Source of the DNA: Alphaproteobacteria bacterium | Lineage (GTDB): Bacteria > Pseudomonadota > Alphaproteobacteria > UBA8366 | Assembly (NCBI GenBank): GCA_028281325.1 | Contig: JANQKC010000027.1 | Location: 186,001-250,000, forward strand | Direction: 5' to 3' | DNA length: 64,000 nt | Part shown: one piece after another, positions 15,344-62,067 of the stretch | Layout of the letters: every line of letters begins with the position of its first letter | Numbering within the stretch: position 1 is the stretch's first letter | Translations under genes and position numbers: made by a program | The notes under the pieces: generated by a model | What the model was told of the DNA's origin: nothing | What the model saw: the letters and a program-made list of their open reading frames with translations, nothing else | Databases searched by the model: none

Positions 15344-18300
15344 CTAGCCGCTGGGCGGCGACGGCGGTTGCGGAATCGCAGCCGGCGCGTCGGTGTCCGC
15401 CCGTTGCGCATCGGTCTGCGTATTCGGGACGGCGCCGCCGGCGGCCGCGGCATCCGGTGCGGGACTCTTCGATTGGGTCACTTTGCTCGGCTCGATCAGG
15501 CGCTCGCGATAGTTCTTCAGAAAGGCGTCGAAGCTGTCGCTTTCTGCCATCTTGCGGGTGATGTCGTCGATATTCCTGGTCGCCCGCCCGGTTGGGCTCG
15601 AGATGAACGCGAAGGCGTCGGCGAGCTTGCTCTGGGCCATGCCGGGCCCATACAGATCGCGCAGCATGATGATCCCCGCCTCGTCGCGCTTCAGGCGAAG
15701 CGCTACCGCCCAGCTCAGGATGAAATTCGCCTGGTCTTCGGGATAACCGCCTTCGGCAAGCGGATCGCCCGCAAGACGCTGCAACACCTTCGCCGCTTCG
15801 GAATAATTCCGGGTGCTCCAATAAATATTCGCCCGCAACAGGTCCGCTTCCCGGCTCACGTCCCCGGCCAGCAGCGCGATGGCTTCCTCGTATCGTCCGA
15901 GCTCCAACGTCGCTTTCGCGCGTATCCGGCGACGGTCGTCATCCAAGTCGGTCGAGAGGTTGGGCTGGAAACTACTGCGCAGCGCCGACAACGCCCCCTT
16001 CGGATTACGATCGAGCAGCCGGATCACCGCAAGCTTGGCGCCGACGCGCGCCCGATCCTCACCCTTAAGGCGGAACCGTACCTGATGCGCCAGAAGATCC
16101 GCCGCGCGACCGAGCAGGTCGACGGAAACCAGCCGCTCGGCGAGTTTCTGGATCATGAGGTCGCCTTCGCTTCCCGCCGGCGTCAATTCGCGGAAGTCGT
16201 CATACAGCGCCAATGCCTGCAAGGGCGGCAGCGCGTCCGCGCCGCCCTCCAAATGCAACTCGCGGAAGGCGGCCGTCATGAGCTGAGCGATGTCCTGCAC
16301 TTTCTTGTTGTTCGGATAGTAGGTGATCGCCGTGCGCAGCGTGTTCAATCCCTTCCGAAACTCGCCTTTGTTCAGATGGAGGGAGCCCAGGCGCTTGAGC
16401 ACCGCGAGCTCAAGATCGTCCCCGCGCCACTGAAACCGCAGCCTTTCGAGGCGCTCGATGGCTTCTTCGACCGTCACGGTTTCCTGCTGCAGTCCCAGTT
16501 CGACAAGCGCGAACTCCGACCGCGCGACATGCCAACGGTCGGCGGTTTTCTTCGAACTCATCCAATGCTCGACCGCACGGTCCAAATCCCGGCTGCCTCG
16601 CGCCAAGACGCCTTGGTTATAGTGCAGCCGCGCGAGCTGGCTGCGTGTCATTCTGTCTGCGTTCTTGCCCAGAAAATTGAGCCAGATCGACGCGTTGCCC
16701 ACATCCAGGTCCGCCAAACTCGCCTCGACCCGTTCCAGCGCCAGCTTCGTGCGGATCGGCTCGGGATAGCTTTGCAAGACCGGGTCGCCGGTCCGGAACT
16801 GCGCCGCGGCTTTCTTCATCTCGCCCGTCTGAAGAAACATCGAGCCGCGCCACAACGATATCTCCTGATAATCATCCAATCTGGGATCGAGCAAATCCTT
16901 ACGCGCCTCATGCGGACGTCCCATGTAGACCCGCGTCGCCGCGATCAGGGCGCGGAACTCCGGTTGCGAGGCCAGCGTTTCGTTCGAAAATTCGATCGTC
17001 CGCAAAACGCCGAGCGCTTCGGGCGCAAACCCTTGGGTAAAGAAGTATCGGGCAAGGTCGAGCCGGGCATCGTCGCGCCGTTCTTTCGGAACCTCGACAA
17101 TCGCGCGCATCGCCGATTGCCTAGCCTTAAAAAAATCCGGGTCGCGGTTCTTCGTCCAGTTTCCGAAATTGAAGATGCGCGGCCCAAGATACGCGCCGTC
17201 GCCGACGCCGCCTTGCGAAACCGACGAAACATGAAGACCGCCCGGCGCGCCGACGACGATCCCCCGATCGCCGGCCGCCTTCAGGCTCACGTCGTCACTC
17301 AACGGATCAATCGCCACGCCCTGCGCCGACGCGAGGACTTGAAATTCGGAATACGCGCGGGGGTCGGCGACGCCATGACCGGGTGCCTGAAGTGTCGCGA
17401 CAAACAAACTGTCGCCCACTTCCGGATCGTCCAGTTTCAGGATACGCCCGACTTCGGATACCGGCAGTTCCAACTCCGCGCCATCGATCGCTTCCGGCCG
17501 AATCCGGAGCGCAATTTCAACTTGCGGCGCGATGGGCCGGCGGCCGAACCGCACAATCCAGTTCGCCTCTTCCCGTTCCACCTGCGGATGGATGCCGGGC
17601 CGCGCCAGCAGACGCACGACCGTTCCTTCGCTTAGCGGCAGTTGTTCGATCTGCTCGATCATGTTCTTGCCGGCCGTCCGCAAAGCGGCCAGATTGAGCT
17701 GCGCGCGCCGGTCGAACACGATCCAAACGTAAGGATCCCGCACGAAGACCGCGGCGCCAACGGGTTCCGGCCATTCGAACACAAGACTGACTTCTCCGGC
17801 GTCCGGCTTGAGACTGACTTGATCGGCGGGCGAGTCCGCTGGCGTCGCCGTCGATGCCGCCGCCGGAGCATCCTCATCGGCCGCAACTTCTGACGTCGGA
17901 ACCGACGCCGTCGCCGGTTGATCGTCGGACGGTACGGTCGGCTCCGCCGGCGCGGTTGCCGCGACCGCATCCGGAGAAGGCGTGACGCCCGGCGCATCGG
18001 CCGGATCGGTCGAGGCCTCGGGCACGGCCGACGCTTCCGCCCCCTCCGCCGCCGTATCCGCTGACGATGTATCGCGCGGAACCGTCTCCGCCGCAGCCGT
18101 GGCCGAGGAGGTTTCGCGCGGCGCATCCGGTTGCGCCGCCGCTATGGTCTCGGTTTTGGGAGCCGGATCGGCGGCCCTGGCCGCTGCCGACGCCAGCGCC
18201 GGATCGGCCGACGGCGCTTGATCCGGCCCGGCGGCAGGGGGCGCTGTCGCAACCGGCTTGTCGACCGGCGCCTGCCCTTTGACGAAATCGACGACGACCT

Positions 18301-18979
18301 TCGGTCCAAGCTTGAAATGCTTGATCCGGCGGTCGTTGGATTTCGTGAATGTAATCGTGGTCGCCGAATCGCTCGTCTTGACCGCCGGGTTCGCGACGCC
18401 ATCCCCCAACCGGCGGCGCAGCGCCGCAATGTCGAAGCGGGCCGGCCGGTCGAATGTTATCACGACCGATTTTTCCGTTTCATCAACGCTGTACGCAACG
18501 GGCTTCACCCAATCGAACACCAAGCGAACGTATTTCGGGTGCTTCCCGACACGCACGCCGACCGCCTTGGTTTCCGCCGAGCGCGCACGGTCCGGCATCG
18601 CGGCCGGACGGCGAATATCAAGGACGACAGACCGCTTGTTCGCAAAACTCGAAACATCGAACTCGCCCGCGAGCAGGAACTCGGCCCGGCGGCCGTCCGC
18701 CGACACGCGCGCATCCGCAACATAGGGGCGCAGCCGCTGCACCACCGTTTTGAGATCGGCGGAAAACGGACGATCAAAACGGGCGGTCAACCGCCGGCCA
18801 TCGGTGGTTGCCGTGAACGATACAGGGCGCTTCCAGTCAAGGACGATCCGGGCATAGGTCGAATGGTCCCAGGTCCGAACGCCGACCGTTTCCCGCGCCG
18901 CGGCGTCACCGATGGAGGCGAGCCCGACAAATGCCGTCAACCCAACGATCGCCAGTGTCCGAATGCAACCTCGCATCAA
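15344..18979 (-). CDS. Large periplasmic protein with AMIN-like repeats, Ala/Pro/Glu-rich linker and TPR-like C-terminal region (1211 aa)
   Basis: Signal peptide MMRGCIRTLAIVGLTAFVGLASIGDAAA; repeated beta units such as VRTWDHSTYARIVLDWKRPVSFTATTDGRRLTARFDRPF, VRVGKHPKYVRLVFDWVKPVAYSVDETEKSVVITFDRPA, VSLVFEWPEPVGAAVFVRDPYVWIVFDRRA; TPR-like helices in the C-terminal half. Start overlaps the stop of the upstream motB-like gene (4 nt). Confidence 0.85.
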   Translation of the reverse strand: MMRGCIRTLAIVGLTAFVGLASIGDAAARETVGVRTWDHSTYARIVLDWKRPVSFTATTDGRRLTARFDRPFSADLKTVVQRLRPYVADARVSADGRRAEFLLAGEFDVSSFANKRSVVLDIRRPAAMPDRARSAETKAVGVRVGKHPKYVRLVFDWVKPVAYSVDETEKSVVITFDRPARFDIAALRRRLGDGVANPAVKTSDSATTITFTKSNDRRIKHFKLGPKVVVDFVKGQAPVDKPVATAPPAAGPDQAPSADPALASAAARAADPAPKTETIAAAQPDAPRETSSATAAAETVPRDTSSADTAAEGAEASAVPEASTDPADAPGVTPSPDAVAATAPAEPTVPSDDQPATASVPTSEVAADEDAPAAASTATPADSPADQVSLKPDAGEVSLVFEWPEPVGAAVFVRDPYVWIVFDRRAQLNLAALRTAGKNMIEQIEQLPLSEGTVVRLLARPGIHPQVEREEANWIVRFGRRPIAPQVEIALRIRPEAIDGAELELPVSEVGRILKLDDPEVGDSLFVATLQAPGHGVADPRAYSEFQVLASAQGVAIDPLSDDVSLKAAGDRGIVVGAPGGLHVSSVSQGGVGDGAYLGPRIFNFGNWTKNRDPDFFKARQSAMRAIVEVPKERRDDARLDLARYFFTQGFAPEALGVLRTIEFSNETLASQPEFRALIAATRVYMGRPHEARKDLLDPRLDDYQEISLWRGSMFLQTGEMKKAAAQFRTGDPVLQSYPEPIRTKLALERVEASLADLDVGNASIWLNFLGKNADRMTRSQLARLHYNQGVLARGSRDLDRAVEHWMSSKKTADRWHVARSEFALVELGLQQETVTVEEAIERLERLRFQWRGDDLELAVLKRLGSLHLNKGEFRKGLNTLRTAITYYPNNKKVQDIAQLMTAAFRELHLEGGADALPPLQALALYDDFRELTPAGSEGDLMIQKLAERLVSVDLLGRAADLLAHQVRFRLKGEDRARVGAKLAVIRLLDRNPKGALSALRSSFQPNLSTDLDDDRRRIRAKATLELGRYEEAIALLAGDVSREADLLRANIYWSTRNYSEAAKVLQRLAGDPLAEGGYPEDQANFILSWAVALRLKRDEAGIIMLRDLYGPGMAQSKLADAFAFISSPTGRATRNIDDITRKMAESDSFDAFLKNYRERLIEPSKVTQSKSPAPDAAAAGGAVPNTQTDAQRADTDAPAAIPQPPSPPSG

Positions 18980-19680
18980 GGCTCTCCTGCTGTCGGGTGA
19001 ATGACGATATCGACCCGGCGCGCCAACTGCCGGCGACGGTCGTCAGAGATGTCACGGTCAAGATGGTCGTATCGCGAGTCGCCCAAGCCAAGCATCGTCA
19101 CATTGCGTTGATAACCGATCCGCTTGAGCTCGTTCGCCACGGCGATCGCCCGCGCCAACGAAAGACGCCAATTCTGCATGACCGACGCGCTGTCTGATCC
19201 GCCCGGCGCGGTATGGCCGTATACGTCGATCTGATTGCCCATTTGCGCGAGAGCACTGGTCAAGCGGAAGAGCGCTTCCTTCGCGGATTCCGTGAGCGTC
19301 GCCCCGGTCGACAAAAACAGCCGCTCGGTCGGCAACGACACGATGACCAGTTTGTCCAGGCGATGTATCTGCGCGCGTCCAAGCACCTCGTCCTGGCTGA
19401 TCTTCTCCTCCAGCACCTGGCTCAGGTAGCCAAGCGGTAGAGCCGGCGGCACGTCGACGGTTGTGACGTTGAACGCGGAGTTCGGCGGCGGCCTGAGATT
19501 TTCCTTCGACGGGTCGGCGTTCGGCAACTTCGATACGACCGCCTGCCACTTTTCCGCCTCCAAGCTGGACATGGAAAACAGCATGACGAAAAAAGCGAGC
19601 AGCAGAGCGGAGATATCGGCAAATGTTACGAGCCAGCGGGCTTGGCCCGGCTGTTCTACGATATCTTTCTTGTCGACCAT
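18976..19680 (-). CDS. motB: MotB-like flagellar stator protein (OmpA/MotB family, PomB/MotS-like TM segment)
   Basis: WLVTFADISALLLAFFVMLFSMSSLEAEKW with conserved Asp; OmpA-like IDVYGHTAPGGSD...NWRLSLARAIAVANELKRIG...RRVDIVI. Confidence 0.88.
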   Translation of the reverse strand: MVDKKDIVEQPGQARWLVTFADISALLLAFFVMLFSMSSLEAEKWQAVVSKLPNADPSKENLRPPPNSAFNVTTVDVPPALPLGYLSQVLEEKISQDEVLGRAQIHRLDKLVIVSLPTERLFLSTGATLTESAKEALFRLTSALAQMGNQIDVYGHTAPGGSDSASVMQNWRLSLARAIAVANELKRIGYQRNVTMLGLGDSRYDHLDRDISDDRRRQLARRVDIVIHPTAGEP

Positions 19681-19682
19681 GG

Positions 19683-20357
19683 TTAGGGTTCCGCCCGCGG
19701 CTGGAACGTCACGCGCGCCCGCGCCGCCGCGCGGATGGCGAAGCGCAGACGCAAGACCTTGGGATCGCCGACTCGGACACCGGCGCTGACCTTGTCTTTG
19801 GCCGCGCCGACATCGAGCAAAGCGCCGGCCAAAACAACGGCCCGCCGGATCGGAAGCGGCGGGTCTTCGTCAAGTTTCGCAGGGTCAATCGGCTCCGTCC
19901 CGAGAACCAATTCCAGCTCGGCAACCATCGATTTCGCCTGGACCGACAAAACGCGTGCCGCCCTCTCCAGGAGGTCCCGCCGGTCGGTCCGCAGCTCCGC
20001 CTTCCCGCCAAGAAACAATTCGTTGGCCGGCATCGTGATCTGCATCAATTGCCCGGCGGTCAGCCTCTCGACCTTGATCACGGACACGGACGTCACCCAA
20101 AGCTGTTCCATCGCTTCCAGAACTTCGTCGGGATCCGAGGTCGGGCCGAGTTCGGCCAATAGAACCTGCGCCGACGTATCCGCGTCGACAACCGATCGGA
20201 AGGTCGCGGCAACGGACGTCAGAACCTGACGTGACTTTTCTTCTTCGATGGTGGCCAAAGCGTTCAAGAGAATAAAGAACGCGAGCAATAAAAGAAAGAG
20301 GCTCAGAAATACTAATGAGCCAGTATTAGATTCTGTTGCAAGTCTATTTTCGTGCAT
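19683..20357 (-). CDS. Degenerate MotB-like paralog lacking the ion-binding Asp
   Basis: SNTGSLVFLSLFLLLLAFFILLNALATIEEEKSRQVLTSVAATF aligns with the MotB TM region, but the Asp position is Ser; degenerate OmpA-like C-terminus (PIRRAVVLAGALLDVGAAKDKVSAGVRVGDPKVLRLRFAIR). Confidence 0.75.
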   Translation of the reverse strand: MHENRLATESNTGSLVFLSLFLLLLAFFILLNALATIEEEKSRQVLTSVAATFRSVVDADTSAQVLLAELGPTSDPDEVLEAMEQLWVTSVSVIKVERLTAGQLMQITMPANELFLGGKAELRTDRRDLLERAARVLSVQAKSMVAELELVLGTEPIDPAKLDEDPPLPIRRAVVLAGALLDVGAAKDKVSAGVRVGDPKVLRLRFAIRAAARARVTFQPRAEP

Positions 20358-20369
20358 TGCATGCGCCGA

Positions 20370-21014
20370 CTAGTCAAAACTTGCCAGGATCTTATCGATC
20401 TCCTCTTGACTATTCGCTGTCCCGGCGTCCTGCGGGCCATGCAATATTTGTTCCTCTTTACGCGCGTCTTCCTGGTCAAGCTCTTCCGACAGGGCCGCGT
20501 TCCGCTCGATCGCGTCAGCATCCCCCAAGACGGCCTTTGCGCGCGTGATGTTCAGCTCGACATGCCGCAGCATATCCTCGACCCGCGTCAGGCGCTGCCC
20601 GGTGATATCTTGAAAGCTGCAGGCTTCGTAAATGGCGGTGGTCACGTCGAAGACCGCCGCCTGCATCGCGCCGTCCTCTTCATCTGCGAAGTTTTCGATA
20701 TCTTCCGTGACGGCGAGGATCGCGCTGGCGGCGTCCTGCGTGGCGGCGCGCACCTTTTCGATCTCCTCGGCGATATCCGAAAACGCCAACCCGTTCTTCT
20801 CGAAATCGCTTAGCGCGGTAAGCGCATCGGCGGCCGCGACCTGTGCGGACATCGACTGTTCGTCTGGTGCCGCCGGCTGGACGAAATCGCCGTGCAACGT
20901 TTTGACGACGTTCTCAATTATTTCGGCAAGCTCCGCGGCGGACAACGGACGGTCGCCGTCCGCCTTGAGATTATCAAGGCACTCCTGGAGCTCGGGTGTG
21001 GCCGAGCGCATCAT
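20370..21014 (-). CDS. cheZ: Protein phosphatase CheZ
   Basis: ACSFQDITGQRLTRVEDMLRHVE and C-terminal EEIDKILASFD tail. Confidence 0.85.
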   Translation of the reverse strand: MMRSATPELQECLDNLKADGDRPLSAAELAEIIENVVKTLHGDFVQPAAPDEQSMSAQVAAADALTALSDFEKNGLAFSDIAEEIEKVRAATQDAASAILAVTEDIENFADEEDGAMQAAVFDVTTAIYEACSFQDITGQRLTRVEDMLRHVELNITRAKAVLGDADAIERNAALSEELDQEDARKEEQILHGPQDAGTANSQEEIDKILASFD

Positions 21015-21027
21015 GAGATTGCCCTAC

Positions 21028-21414
21028 TTAGAAATCGCCGAGGACGCTGGTGAGCTTGCTCTTCAAGGTGGCCGCGTTGAACGGCTTCACAATGTAGTTG
21101 TTCACGCCGGCTTCCTTGGCGGCGACAACGTTCTCGGTCTTGCTTTCCGCGGTGATCATAATGAACGGAGTCTCGCGAAGAGATTCATCCACCCGAACCT
21201 GCTTCAACAACTCCAGCCCCGTCATCGGCTCCATGTTCCAATCGGAAATCACCAGGCCGTATTTGCGCTGCTGCATGCGTTCCAGCGCCGCTTTTCCATC
21301 CGTCGCTTCATCGACATTGTTGAAGCCGATCTGCTTGAGCAGATTACGGATGATCCGCAGCATCGTCTTGTAGTCGTCCACAATCAATACCGGCATCTCA
21401 AGATCAACAGCCAT
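21028..21414 (-). CDS. cheY: Chemotaxis response regulator CheY
   Basis: PVLIVDDYKTMLRIIRNLLKQIGFNNVDEATDGKAALE...LVISDWNMEPMTGLELLKQVR...MITAES...NYIVKPFNAATLKSKL. Confidence 0.95.
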   Translation of the reverse strand: MAVDLEMPVLIVDDYKTMLRIIRNLLKQIGFNNVDEATDGKAALERMQQRKYGLVISDWNMEPMTGLELLKQVRVDESLRETPFIMITAESKTENVVAAKEAGVNNYIVKPFNAATLKSKLTSVLGDF

Positions 21415-21521: not shown

Positions 21522-22250
21522 TTAGCGGCTATCGGCCGTGGCGCCGGGGGCCGGCGTCTTCTGCCGCTTCGCCATGCTTCGCGTGATCTTCCGGGCTTTG
21601 TCGGGGTTCATCGCCGCGACAACGGGCGCGAGCTTGCGCACTTTCATGCGCTCCACCACACTCATCAGAACGGGCATCTCAAGTTCGTCGAAAATCTTGG
21701 CGGCATCCTTCGGCTTCATGTTCTCGTATACCTTAACGAGATTGCCGATCCGCCGCTGCTCTTTCGCATCAAGTTGATCCAACAACCCCCTGACTTCGCT
21801 GCGCATTGCAAGTAACTCGGCTTGCCGGTCGACAAGTTTCTGCTCGGCGGCCTGCAACAGCGCCTCGCGTTGGTTCAAGCTCTCTTCGCGGCTATCGAGG
21901 GTCGAACGGCGTTGCGCGAGCGCCTGCAACAGCTGGATTTCCGATTTGCTCAGTTGGCGCGGATCGATCGGCCGACCGGGCGGCGTCACTTCGTTTCCGG
22001 CATTCCCGTCGGGTTTCGGATCGGAGGTGAGCGCCGGCGGCGCATTCGCCGGGTTGATAGCGGGCGCGGGCTGATCGCCGGCGGCGTCCCCGCCCACGGC
22101 CGGATTCGCCGGTTCCTGCGCCACGGCCACGGCCGACTGCCAGTCGCCGCCGTCCCGCAAGGATGAAACACCCTGCCAAATCGACCCGAGTTTGAGCGTC
22201 AGCATGGTCGCCGCGACGAAAATCAGGGCGGGGAGAAGTCGAAACCGCAT
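21522..22250 (-). CDS. MotE-like flagellar protein (MgtE N-domain-like)
   Basis: N-terminal TM; coiled coil; VKVYENMKPKDAAKIFDELEMPVLMSVVERMKVRKLAPVVAAMNPDKARKIT. Confidence 0.75.
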   Translation of the reverse strand: MRFRLLPALIFVAATMLTLKLGSIWQGVSSLRDGGDWQSAVAVAQEPANPAVGGDAAGDQPAPAINPANAPPALTSDPKPDGNAGNEVTPPGRPIDPRQLSKSEIQLLQALAQRRSTLDSREESLNQREALLQAAEQKLVDRQAELLAMRSEVRGLLDQLDAKEQRRIGNLVKVYENMKPKDAAKIFDELEMPVLMSVVERMKVRKLAPVVAAMNPDKARKITRSMAKRQKTPAPGATADSR

Positions 22251-22260
22251 CGTCGGCCGC

Positions 22261-22755
22261 CTAACGGATCCCGTCCAGCGCGCGCAGCAACGCCGCCTTC
22301 TTACGTCCGCTATCGGACATGTCGCGGCCGCGATTGCCGGGCCGCAAACCGGTTACGCCCGACACACCGGCGCCTTGATCATTCGCGCCGGGACCGAACG
22401 TCCGGACGTTACGATCGCCGCCACGCCCGGCGCCGATCGAATGATCCAGACGATCCGCGACACCGCCGGCGCGGTCGATCATAAAAGCGAGATCGTCACA
22501 AAGTTGTTTGGCTTGTTTGATGCTGGCATGCAGCGATTCATTCGCTTCCAGCGAGCCGGATCGAAGTTTCTGCACGCTCGCTTCCGCCCTGGCCGTCGAT
22601 TGATTGAAGCTGGCGATCAGTTTCTGCAAATGCGCCTTATCCGCCTTCAACAGCGTGAGCCGCCGATTCAGTTGCACCGCATATAGGATCATCACCAACA
22701 GCAAGCATGCGCCAATCACTTCCACCACAAATGACAGGTGCGGAAACAGCATCAT
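22261..22755 (-). CDS. DUF6468-like membrane-anchored flagellar-cluster protein
   Basis: N-terminal TM then VQLNRRLTLLKADKAHLQKLIASFNQSTARAEASVQKLR; sits between fliM and motE-like gene. Family name from memory. Confidence 0.55.
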   Translation of the reverse strand: MMLFPHLSFVVEVIGACLLLVMILYAVQLNRRLTLLKADKAHLQKLIASFNQSTARAEASVQKLRSGSLEANESLHASIKQAKQLCDDLAFMIDRAGGVADRLDHSIGAGRGGDRNVRTFGPGANDQGAGVSGVTGLRPGNRGRDMSDSGRKKAALLRALDGIR

Positions 22756-23906
22756 TCGGTCTCCATTTTTTCTTCAATTCGCACCGCGATCTTCTCCCCC
22801 TTGCGTCCCATCAATCCCTTGAACAACTTGACTTCGCCGCATTTCAAGTCGACGAGCGATGCAGGCTTCGCAAGCAGGTCCAACCGCGATCCGACTTCCC
22901 ATCGCAGGACGTCGTTCAGCGACACGGTCGTATTGTCCAACACGGCTTCGAGCTCGACGTCGGTGAACCAGAGTTCGGTCGCCAGATGGTTTTCCCAGAT
23001 CGAGTCACGGCCGAACTTCTCGCCCATGAACATCTGCAGCAGCAGTTCGCGAACCGGCTCCAGCGTGGCATACGGCAGCAAGAGCTCCAGACGACCGCCG
23101 CGATCCTCCATATCGACGCGAAGCCGCGCGACGACGGCGGCGTTGGCCGGACGCGCGATCGTCGCGAAGCGCGGGTTGGTCTCCAGCCGATCGAAACGGA
23201 AGGTGACGGAACTCAACGGGTCGAACGCCGCGGACAGGTCGGCCAAGACGACCGCGATCATCCGTTCGACGAGGTTCCGTTCGATCGTCGTATAGGGCCG
23301 CCCTTCGATCCGCATCGCGGCCGTCCCGCGCCGCCCGCCGAGAAGCACGTCGACGATGGAATAGATAAGCGAACTATCGACCGTGATGAGGCCGAAGTTG
23401 TCCCACTCCTCCGCCTTGAAGACCGCAAGCATCGCCGGCAACGGAATTGAATTCAGATAGTCGCCGAACCGGATCGAACTGATATTGTCTAGGCTGACCT
23501 CGACGTTATCCGACGTGAAGTTGCGCAGCGAGGTCGACAACATGCGCACCAGGCGGTCGAAAACGACTTCCAGCATCGGCAGGCGTTCATAAGACACCAT
23601 GCCGCTGTCGATGATGGCTTCGATGCCCGACTTGTCGGACGTTTCCTCGCCGCCCTCGCGGAAGCCGAGAAGGCTGTCGATTTCATCCTGGTTGAGAACA
23701 CGGGCGTTGCCGCCGCCGCCGTCGTCCAAATCATCGCCGCCGTCGTCGTCGGCCATCGCGGCCCATTCCGCGGCGACGTCTTCATCGCTGCCGCCGCCCT
23801 CACCGCCGTCGGCGCCCTCGCCGTCTTCTTCGGCCATTGCAGCCCATTCCGCGGCAACGTCGTCGTCGTTTACTTCGCCTTCTTTTTCGTCGGCCATATC
23901 CACCAA
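22752..23906 (-). CDS. fliM: Flagellar motor switch protein FliM (with N-terminal extension)
   Basis: RVLNQDEIDSLLGF CheY-binding motif, SYERLPMLEVVFDRLVRMLSTSLRNFTSDNVEVSLDNI, C-terminal SPOA region. Confidence 0.95.
   Translation of the reverse strand: MVDMADEKEGEVNDDDVAAEWAAMAEEDGEGADGGEGGGSDEDVAAEWAAMADDDGGDDLDDGGGGNARVLNQDEIDSLLGFREGGEETSDKSGIEAIIDSGMVSYERLPMLEVVFDRLVRMLSTSLRNFTSDNVEVSLDNISSIRFGDYLNSIPLPAMLAVFKAEEWDNFGLITVDSSLIYSIVDVLLGGRRGTAAMRIEGRPYTTIERNLVERMIAVVLADLSAAFDPLSSVTFRFDRLETNPRFATIARPANAAVVARLRVDMEDRGGRLELLLPYATLEPVRELLLQMFMGEKFGRDSIWENHLATELWFTDVELEAVLDNTTVSLNDVLRWEVGSRLDLLAKPASLVDLKCGEVKLFKGLMGRKGEKIAVRIEEKMETE
23753..23872. repeat. 81-bp-period in-frame duplication in the fliM 5' end
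   Basis: GGCCATCGCGGCCCATTCCGCGGCGACGTC (23753) and GGCCATTGCAGCCCATTCCGCGGCAACGTC (23834), encoding DEDVAAEWAAMADDD / DDDVAAEWAAMAEED. Confidence 0.8.
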
Positions 23907-23954: not shown

Positions 23955-24512
23955 CTATTGCACAAGCATCTCGCGGAACAAAACGTCTCTTACTTTCGCC
24001 GGATGGGCCGCCGCGTTGACGCGCGCGAGCAGCTCCTCCTTCACTCGATACAGACCATGGGACCCCTGCAGTTCCTCGATGCGCAACTCGCGGAGAAACA
24101 CCTGGAAATTATCGATAATCCGCGGCATCACCGATTTGATGCGCGCTTCGTCGACCGCGCTCTCAAGCTCCAGGCTAAGCTGCATCTTGAGAAAGCTCGA
24201 CTTCCGGCCGGTCCCGCCGAGGGTCACGACCATCTCGTCCAGATCCAGGTAATGCGCCGCAACCGGCGGCGCGGCCGCGGCGTCACCCCCTTCCGCGGTC
24301 TGCGCGGCGTCGTCGCCGCCCAACAACCCCGAGAAGTAAACGCCAGCCCCCGCGCCCGCGAGCACGACGATGCCGATCACCGCGAATAGGATCAGCTTTT
24401 TCTTGCCGGATTTCTTCCCGGCACCGTCGCCATCGCCGTTTTCGACGTCTTCGCCATCGCCATCTGCGGCGTCGGCAACGGCTTCTTCTGCCTCATCCGG
24501 CTCGTCAGTCAT
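23955..24512 (-). CDS. fliL: Flagellar basal body-associated protein FliL
   Basis: KKKLILFAVIGIVVLAGAGAGVYFSGL; YLDLDEMVVTLGGTGRKSSFLKMQLSLELES; C-terminal VRDVLFREMLVQ. Confidence 0.9.
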   Translation of the reverse strand: MTDEPDEAEEAVADAADGDGEDVENGDGDGAGKKSGKKKLILFAVIGIVVLAGAGAGVYFSGLLGGDDAAQTAEGGDAAAAPPVAAHYLDLDEMVVTLGGTGRKSSFLKMQLSLELESAVDEARIKSVMPRIIDNFQVFLRELRIEELQGSHGLYRVKEELLARVNAAAHPAKVRDVLFREMLVQ

Positions 24513-61224: not shown

Positions 61225-62067
61225 ATGGCTTACGGTACGGAAACGTCAACGCGCCTGCGAAGCCCCGGCAGGATGAAAGCGCCGCCGGCTCGAATGGCGC
61301 TGGACGTCGCGACGCTTGTCGGACTGTCGGCGGCTTTCCTGCTCATCGCGATTGCGATCTTCATTGGCGGGTCGCCCGGCGCATTCGTCGACGGACCGGC
61401 AATCTTCATCGTTATCGGCGGGACCTTCGGCGTCACCACCGCCTGTTTCTCGCTCCAGGATATTCTCGTCAGCTTTCGCGTCGTCACCGAGGCGGTCTTC
61501 CGCACGGCGTCGAACCCGGCCGCCGCGGCCAACCACGTCATGCAGCTTGCCGACATGTCGCGCCGCAAGGGTGTTCTGTCGCTCCAAGACATTCTGCCGG
61601 ACCTCGCCCGGACCGGACTGCTGTATCGCGGCATCACGATGGTCGTCGACGGCAGCACGCCGGAAGAAGTCGAACGGATCATGCAGCGCGAAATCGACGC
61701 ATCGGGCAGACGGCATGTCCAGACGGTGCGCATCCTGCGCAAGGCCGCCGAAATCTCGCCCGCCATGGGCTTGATCGGCACGCTTGTCGGGTTGGTGCAG
61801 ATGCTGGGGAATCTCGAAGACCCGAGCACGATCGGCCCCAGCATGGCGGTGGCGCTCCTCACGACCTTCTACGGCGCCGTGTTGGCGAATCTCGTCTTCA
61901 CGCCACTCGCGTCGAAACTGGAACAGAACGAGATGGAAGAAGCGACGGTCAACAATCTCTACATCATGGCCGCCGGGTCCATCGCAAGGCAGGAAAACCC
62001 GCGACGGCTCGAAATGCTGCTCAACACGGCGTTGCCGCAAGGCCATCGGATTTCTTTCTACAGCTAG
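61225..62067 (+). CDS. motA: MotA/PomA-like flagellar stator protein
   Basis: LDVATLVGLSAAFLLIAIAIFIGGSPGAFVDGPAIFIVIGGTFGVTT...AAEISPAMGLIGTLVGLVQMLGNLEDPSTIGPSMAVALLTTFYGAVLANLVFTPLASKL. Confidence 0.92.
   Translation: MAYGTETSTRLRSPGRMKAPPARMALDVATLVGLSAAFLLIAIAIFIGGSPGAFVDGPAIFIVIGGTFGVTTACFSLQDILVSFRVVTEAVFRTASNPAAAANHVMQLADMSRRKGVLSLQDILPDLARTGLLYRGITMVVDGSTPEEVERIMQREIDASGRRHVQTVRILRKAAEISPAMGLIGTLVGLVQMLGNLEDPSTIGPSMAVALLTTFYGAVLANLVFTPLASKLEQNEMEEATVNNLYIMAAGSIARQENPRRLEMLLNTALPQGHRISFYS

Follow-up and report, generated by a model that had tools for sequence, protein, structure and literature searches.

A large three-AMIN, TPR-containing periplasmic protein encoded beside motB is probably a MotK/PflA-type stator scaffold of Alphaproteobacteria

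The window analyzed here, a 64,000-nucleotide stretch of alphaproteobacterial DNA, contains an operon with the order fliL-fliM-DUF6468-motE-cheY-cheZ-MotBx-MotB-scaffold gene (Table 1), where MotBx is a MotB paralog lacking the channel Asp. The scaffold gene is the last of the operon and converges on fliP. An earlier note, made from the sequence alone, had described it as a long ORF with a signal peptide and omitted its strand; full-length relatives at 36-79% identity and 71 loci in the genome collection place the ORF far beyond chance, and it is a real, conserved gene on the (-) strand. Both candidate starts sit in ...GGAGAGCCTTGATGCGA. The ATG at 18976 is preceded by an AGGAG-like sequence and overlaps the motB stop codon by 1 nt (TGATG), so that the previously proposed length of 1211 aa and 4-nt overlap hold only if the alternative TTG at 18979 is the start. 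The overlap itself is real, although the gene that it couples to is the Asp-bearing MotB (FAD motif), with the Asp-less paralog one gene further upstream. Of the 55 related loci in which motB and the scaffold gene were both identified, 27 show an in-frame start that overlaps the motB stop codon by 1 or 4 nt; close coupling of the two genes is therefore common but not universal.

Table 1. Features of the scaffold gene, its operon and the stator A gene, in window coordinates
Feature	Coordinates	Strand	Remarks
Probable MotK/PflA-type periplasmic scaffold gene	15344..18976	(-)	1210 aa from ATG at 18976
Sec-type signal peptide, ~aa 1-27, AxA-type site, without lipobox	18896..18976	(-)	Sequence inspection; aligned with relatives
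AMIN domain 1, aa 30-123	18608..18889	(-)	AlphaFold2 model and repeat profiles
AMIN domain 2, aa 139-233	18278..18562	(-)	Pfam AMIN match here, AlphaFold2 model, repeat profiles
Ala/Pro-rich linker, aa 234-395, predicted disordered	17792..18277	(-)	pLDDT mostly <55; unconserved among aligned relatives
AMIN domain 3, aa 396-479, joined directly to beta domain and TPR region	17540..17791	(-)	Model, profiles
Further beta domain, aa 484-588	17213..17527	(-)	pLDDT ~90 or more
TPR superhelix, aa 604-1160, ~29 helices / ~14 hairpins	15497..17167	(-)	Pfam, model, Foldseek
MotB, channel Asp (FADISALL), OmpA-type C-terminal domain	18976..19680	(-)	Overlaps scaffold start
MotBx, MotB paralog without channel Asp, degenerate C-terminal domain	19683..20357	(-)	
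cheZ	20370..21014	(-)	
cheY	21028..21414	(-)	
MotE/FlgY/FlbB-type E-ring protein, MgtE_N/ARM-like head	21522..22250	(-)	
DUF6468 protein	22261..22755	(-)	Place of pflI in C. sphaeroides/Caulobacter
fliM	22752..23906	(-)	
fliL	23955..24512	(-)	First operon gene
PomA/MotA-type stator A subunit	61225..62067	(+)	Downstream of fliF, fliG and a fliH-like gene

The domain organization was examined by Pfam, repeat profiles and AlphaFold2 modeling. Pfam recognized an AMIN domain at aa 135-174 and TPRs from ~aa 777 to 1070. In the N-terminal model, which was built on 53 related sequences, the three AMIN folds, each with a helix and seven or eight strands, lie nearly entirely above pLDDT 90, as does the further beta domain, and a second model, covering aa 396-1165, has a mean pLDDT of 88 and accounts for the helices listed in Table 1 (~29). 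The AMIN repeat profiles detect one another within the protein, most strongly for repeats 1 and 2 (E 5e-21) and more weakly for repeat 3 (E 1.5e-5 to 2e-7), the AMIN3 profile reaching only E 0.15 on repeat 1. The three approaches support three of the AMIN-like repeats read from the sequence earlier (at least three in that reading), and the Ala/Pro-rich linker and long TPR-like region of that reading are recovered as a predicted disordered segment and a TPR superhelix starting at ~aa 604. The most conserved stretch of the protein, aa 916-965, lies around FRELTPAGSEGD and the helices that follow and is, on sequence conservation, a candidate partner-binding site.

Foldseek searches of the PDB with the N-terminal model gave the AMIN domains of PilQ and AmiC as the best genuine AMIN matches; hits to small heat-shock proteins and immunoglobulins were discounted, being of the general beta-sandwich type. 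With the aa 396-1165 model as query, the top match among 350,542 PDB chains was 9hmf_K (E 7.4e-11, all 773 residues aligned, TM-score only 0.21), from the flagellar periplasmic scaffold of Campylobacter jejuni, with 9hmf_L at rank 48. Entry 9HMF was deposited as the scaffold containing PflA (PMC12222027), and chain K would be PflA itself, as its 773 residues equal the length of PflA 16-788. Because the TM-scores are low and TPR superhelices cross-match widely (293 PDB hits at E<=0.001 for the same model), the fold match supports the kind of protein rather than its descent. A 53-sequence scaffold profile searched against all PDB sequences returned no 9hmf chain at E <= 1, and an NCBIfam match to SctY (E 0.0014, far below its cut-off) was taken as TPR cross-matching. 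Plasmid records with MotE-like genes yielded no motK locus with AMIN domains.

MotE of the window matches MgtE_N (E 2e-6), showing a helical region followed by an MgtE_N/ARM-like C-terminal head, and matches the model for the spirochaete collar protein FlbB at E 4e-8, below that model's cut-off. In 54 of the 58 loci that extend 5 kb or more upstream of the scaffold gene, motE lies within 6 kb on that side. The channel Asp of MotB is kept in every sequence inspected. MotBx and MotB are true paralogs (profile-profile probability 99.1, E 1.5e-18), and the MotBx residue aligned to the channel Asp is small and never acidic in readable homologs. MotBx adjoins an Asp-bearing MotB in ~50 loci, and in most loci MotBx, MotB and the scaffold gene are contiguous; in several others motE or cheZ is followed directly by the scaffold gene, without an intervening MotB pair. 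In the Dongia-type loci L067, L069, L072, L074 and L092 the scaffold gene follows cheZ, with no MotB pair labeled between them. Culturable relatives with the operon include Aestuariispira insulae and Dongia mobilis. The stator A subunit encoded elsewhere in the window is the likely partner of MotB, and the DUF6468 protein, judged from gene order only, would be equivalent to pflI. A literature search, with most subscription journals outside it, returned no article on this type of operon or on DUF6468. Two further arrangements were noted in the collection. A Hwanghaeella sp. MAG carries, besides L044, a second, divergent MotBx-MotB-scaffold set (L054), which may represent either another flagellar system or a contig from a contaminant. 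At G000:C36:352382-354007 (L155), a second MotA-like gene precedes two MotB genes that each carry the canonical AYADFVTAMM motif, and no other flagellar gene was recognized near this set.

To follow the family across the class, we searched 150 genomes with a profile of the TPR region and based the counts on 144 alphaproteobacterial genomes, all >=90% complete. The scaffold profile matched in 86 of these and FliM in 87; both were present in 82, the profile only in 4, FliM only in 5, and neither in 53. The family is thus found in 82 of 87 FliM-positive versus 4 of 57 FliM-negative genomes (Fisher p 1.5e-28, with genomes treated as independent and without phylogenetic correction). In 61 of the 82 genomes with both, a single contig carries the two genes at a distance of no more than 15 kb, and in 18 they lie on different contigs. 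A scaffold match is present in 36 of the 40 nearest genomes; the 4 without one lack FliM too, some of these being incomplete. FliM is likewise absent from same-order genomes that gave no scaffold hit. Another labeled flagellar or chemotaxis gene accompanies 69 of the 71 scaffold loci of the named collection. The outcome that the earlier note would have counted against its reading, homologs occurring mainly away from flagellar genes, is not what we observed: the relatives belong to flagellar operons and occur together with FliM. Two loci, L100 (from one organism, Aestuariispira) and G015:C3:91444-92259, hold a paralog of the TPR region without any labeled flagellar gene close by. The scaffold gene is split into two or three frames in L047, L048, L082 and L087; gene fission was considered but is not claimed, as the junctions inspected in L047, L048 and L082 resemble frameshifts or stops, each at a different place, and in L082 several neighboring genes are broken too. 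Assembly error and decay are the candidate causes.

The number of AMIN domains in the family ranges from 0 to 3 on a constant TPR core. Three is the number in most Rhodospirillales relatives, and three AMIN profiles are found in the frames of the Maricaulales-type relative L087; relatives of ~980-1040 residues, several of them labeled Micavibrio, give one clear and one weak AMIN match. The AMIN profiles found no such domain in the Sphingomonadales (L114) and Rhodobacterales (L113, L115) relatives or in L149 and L150. These AMIN-less homologs, annotated as hypothetical protein, keep the signal sequence and the TPR region and lie in flagellar clusters, so that peptidoglycan binding is not universal in the family. 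Seven FliM-less genomes of family f4 (G013, G016, G019, G022, G025, G028, G031) have only an AMIN-AMIN protein of ~340-480 aa, which has a cheY-like gene close by in both regions read (L156, L157; a third locus is L158) and is perhaps a remnant of the scaffold operon. Since AMIN-less members keep the TPR region and the FliM-less genomes keep only AMIN-AMIN, the TPR region is the flagellum-linked constant.

The first descriptions of such proteins, as MotK, CC_2058 and PflA, date from 2024-2025 and include the MotE/FlgY partnership (PMC10954123, PMC11870540, PMC12222027, PMC13023049); the earlier view of an undescribed scaffold is therefore not supported. MotK (Q3IY86), reported in 2024 from the Fla2 system of Cereibacter sphaeroides, is a periplasmic AMIN and TPR protein that interacts with MotE and MotB2 and is required for rotation; CC_2058 of Caulobacter (Q9A6M9) is its distant counterpart (PMC10954123), the two being dissimilar by BLAST according to the published work. 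A preprint (PMC11870540) and a review (PMC13023049) equate MotE with FlgY/FlbB, and PflA with MotK, MotC and CC_2058; in their proposal, TPR proteins of this type are widespread beside flagellar genes. As the sequences are hardly alike, the published work links MotK, CC_2058, MotC and PflA by structure and position.

By its published description, MotK resembles the window protein in Sec export, an N-terminal AMIN fold, for which PilQ and AmiC matches were also reported, a Pro-rich disordered region, TPR-type helices, a fliL-motE operon beside stator genes and occurrence in flagellated Alphaproteobacteria. It differs in size and content, with 652 residues and one reported AMIN domain against 1210 residues, three AMIN domains and a further beta domain, and its gene follows motA2 rather than an Asp-less and an Asp-bearing motB. 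CC_2058 of Caulobacter crescentus, also compared by description only, is reported to have an AMIN-type N terminus and a PflA-like fold, to adjoin the MotE homolog CC_2059 and to give a Mot- mutant, but has one reported AMIN (residues 36-132; PMC10954123, PMC11870540). PflA of Campylobacter jejuni combines an AMIN-like beta-sandwich, a flexible linker and a C-terminal TPR superhelix and works with the FlgY/MotE E-ring and the stators, its radial spokes touching the E-ring and being accompanied by a PflB rim; it differs in having one AMIN, 788 residues and PflB bound via the linker, and no sequence similarity to the window scaffold was detected (PMC12222027, PMC11870540). MotC of Sinorhizobium meliloti, again set beside the scaffold by description, is likewise periplasmic, TPR-rich, MotE-dependent and needed for rotation, but has no reported AMIN and another gene position (PMC10954123, PMC13023049). 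The traits of the MotK/CC_2058 group, namely a signal peptide, an N-terminal AMIN fold, TPR-type helices and a motE/fliL operon, are all found in the scaffold, as is the PflA trait of an AMIN-like beta domain with a C-terminal TPR superhelix. The window protein falls within the published proposal of PflA-like TPR scaffolds, as a larger, three-AMIN member.

Taken together, these data suggest that the gene very probably encodes an alphaproteobacterial stator spoke or scaffold of the MotK/PflA type with three AMIN domains. The earlier proposal of a periplasmic, stator-associated AMIN/TPR scaffold is well supported by the flagellar operons, the co-occurrence with FliM and the Campylobacter fold match, and its analogy with PflA and MotC was apt, as that scaffold is the best PDB fold match. 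The modeled order of signal peptide, AMIN, linker and TPR is that of MotK and PflA, and it is from these two proteins that we infer attachment to peptidoglycan, MotE and MotB as the proteins contacted, the orientation and the phenotype. We propose that the scaffold, synthesized together with MotB, would be exported by Sec, and that AMIN1-AMIN2, on a disordered tether of ~160 residues, would attach to the peptidoglycan that surrounds the motor. If the protein acts as MotK and PflA do, its TPR superhelix would extend to the MotE E-ring and keep the stators in a ring. Such a radial strut would recruit MotA/MotB stators and keep them engaged, so that loss of the scaffold should give paralysed flagella.

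We considered whether the protein might instead serve assembly rather than torque, as a wall-remodeling adaptor in which AMIN locates peptidoglycan and a lytic enzyme, recruited or activated by the TPR region, opens the cell wall so that rod or stator can be inserted. AMIN is known from amidases and PilQ, and the N-terminal fold matches AmiC, but the conserved operon has no amidase or transglycosylase gene, its neighbors being MotE, MotB and switch genes, and the TPR core persists where AMIN is absent; motK mutants of C. sphaeroides, moreover, are flagellated but paralysed (PMC10954123). This role is very unlikely. A role as a chaperone that assists assembly of MotB or MotE in the periplasm, without being part of the motor structure, has a precedent in the function once proposed for MotE towards MotC, and would be in line with the start/stop overlap with motB, the constant nearness to motE and the dependence of MotE stability on MotK in C. 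sphaeroides (PMC10954123). Nevertheless, the size, wall-binding-type domains and rigid superhelix fit a scaffold, MotK-sfGFP localizes to the flagellated pole in a stator-dependent manner (PMC10954123), and PflA is a visible spoke (PMC12222027), and we regard a chaperone as highly improbable.

The earlier note had assigned the scaffold to an unusual stator pair, the Asp-less MotBx with MotB. The contiguity of the three genes in most loci speaks for such a specialization, and all 40 of the 144 genomes with a strong MotBx match (E < 1e-14, a cut-off set after viewing the hit list, the weaker and uncounted hits being mostly OmpA domains) also carry the scaffold family. However, a strong MotBx match is missing from 46 of the 86 carriers, and several loci pass from motE or cheZ directly to the scaffold gene. 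With the Asp-less MotB in only 40 of the 86 carriers the family is broader than MotBx, and the scaffold is therefore not a dedicated holder of that pair; the specialized reading seems improbable to us. A scaffolded motor with a MotB/MotBx heterodimer, in which the three-AMIN spoke would supply wall anchoring that the degenerate OmpA-type domain of MotBx cannot, is rather doubtful; it would imply one proton path per stator instead of two.

Within the preferred reading of a MotK/PflA-type stator scaffold, what is new here is that a profile detects, at the sequence level, one family across the Alphaproteobacteria with members that have three, two or no AMIN domains. The profile separates the constant TPR core from the variable wall-binding part and makes the family, whose members are currently listed as hypothetical protein, easy to annotate. 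The conserved Asp-less MotB paralog that shares the scaffold operon points to an odd stator arrangement that is open to genetics.
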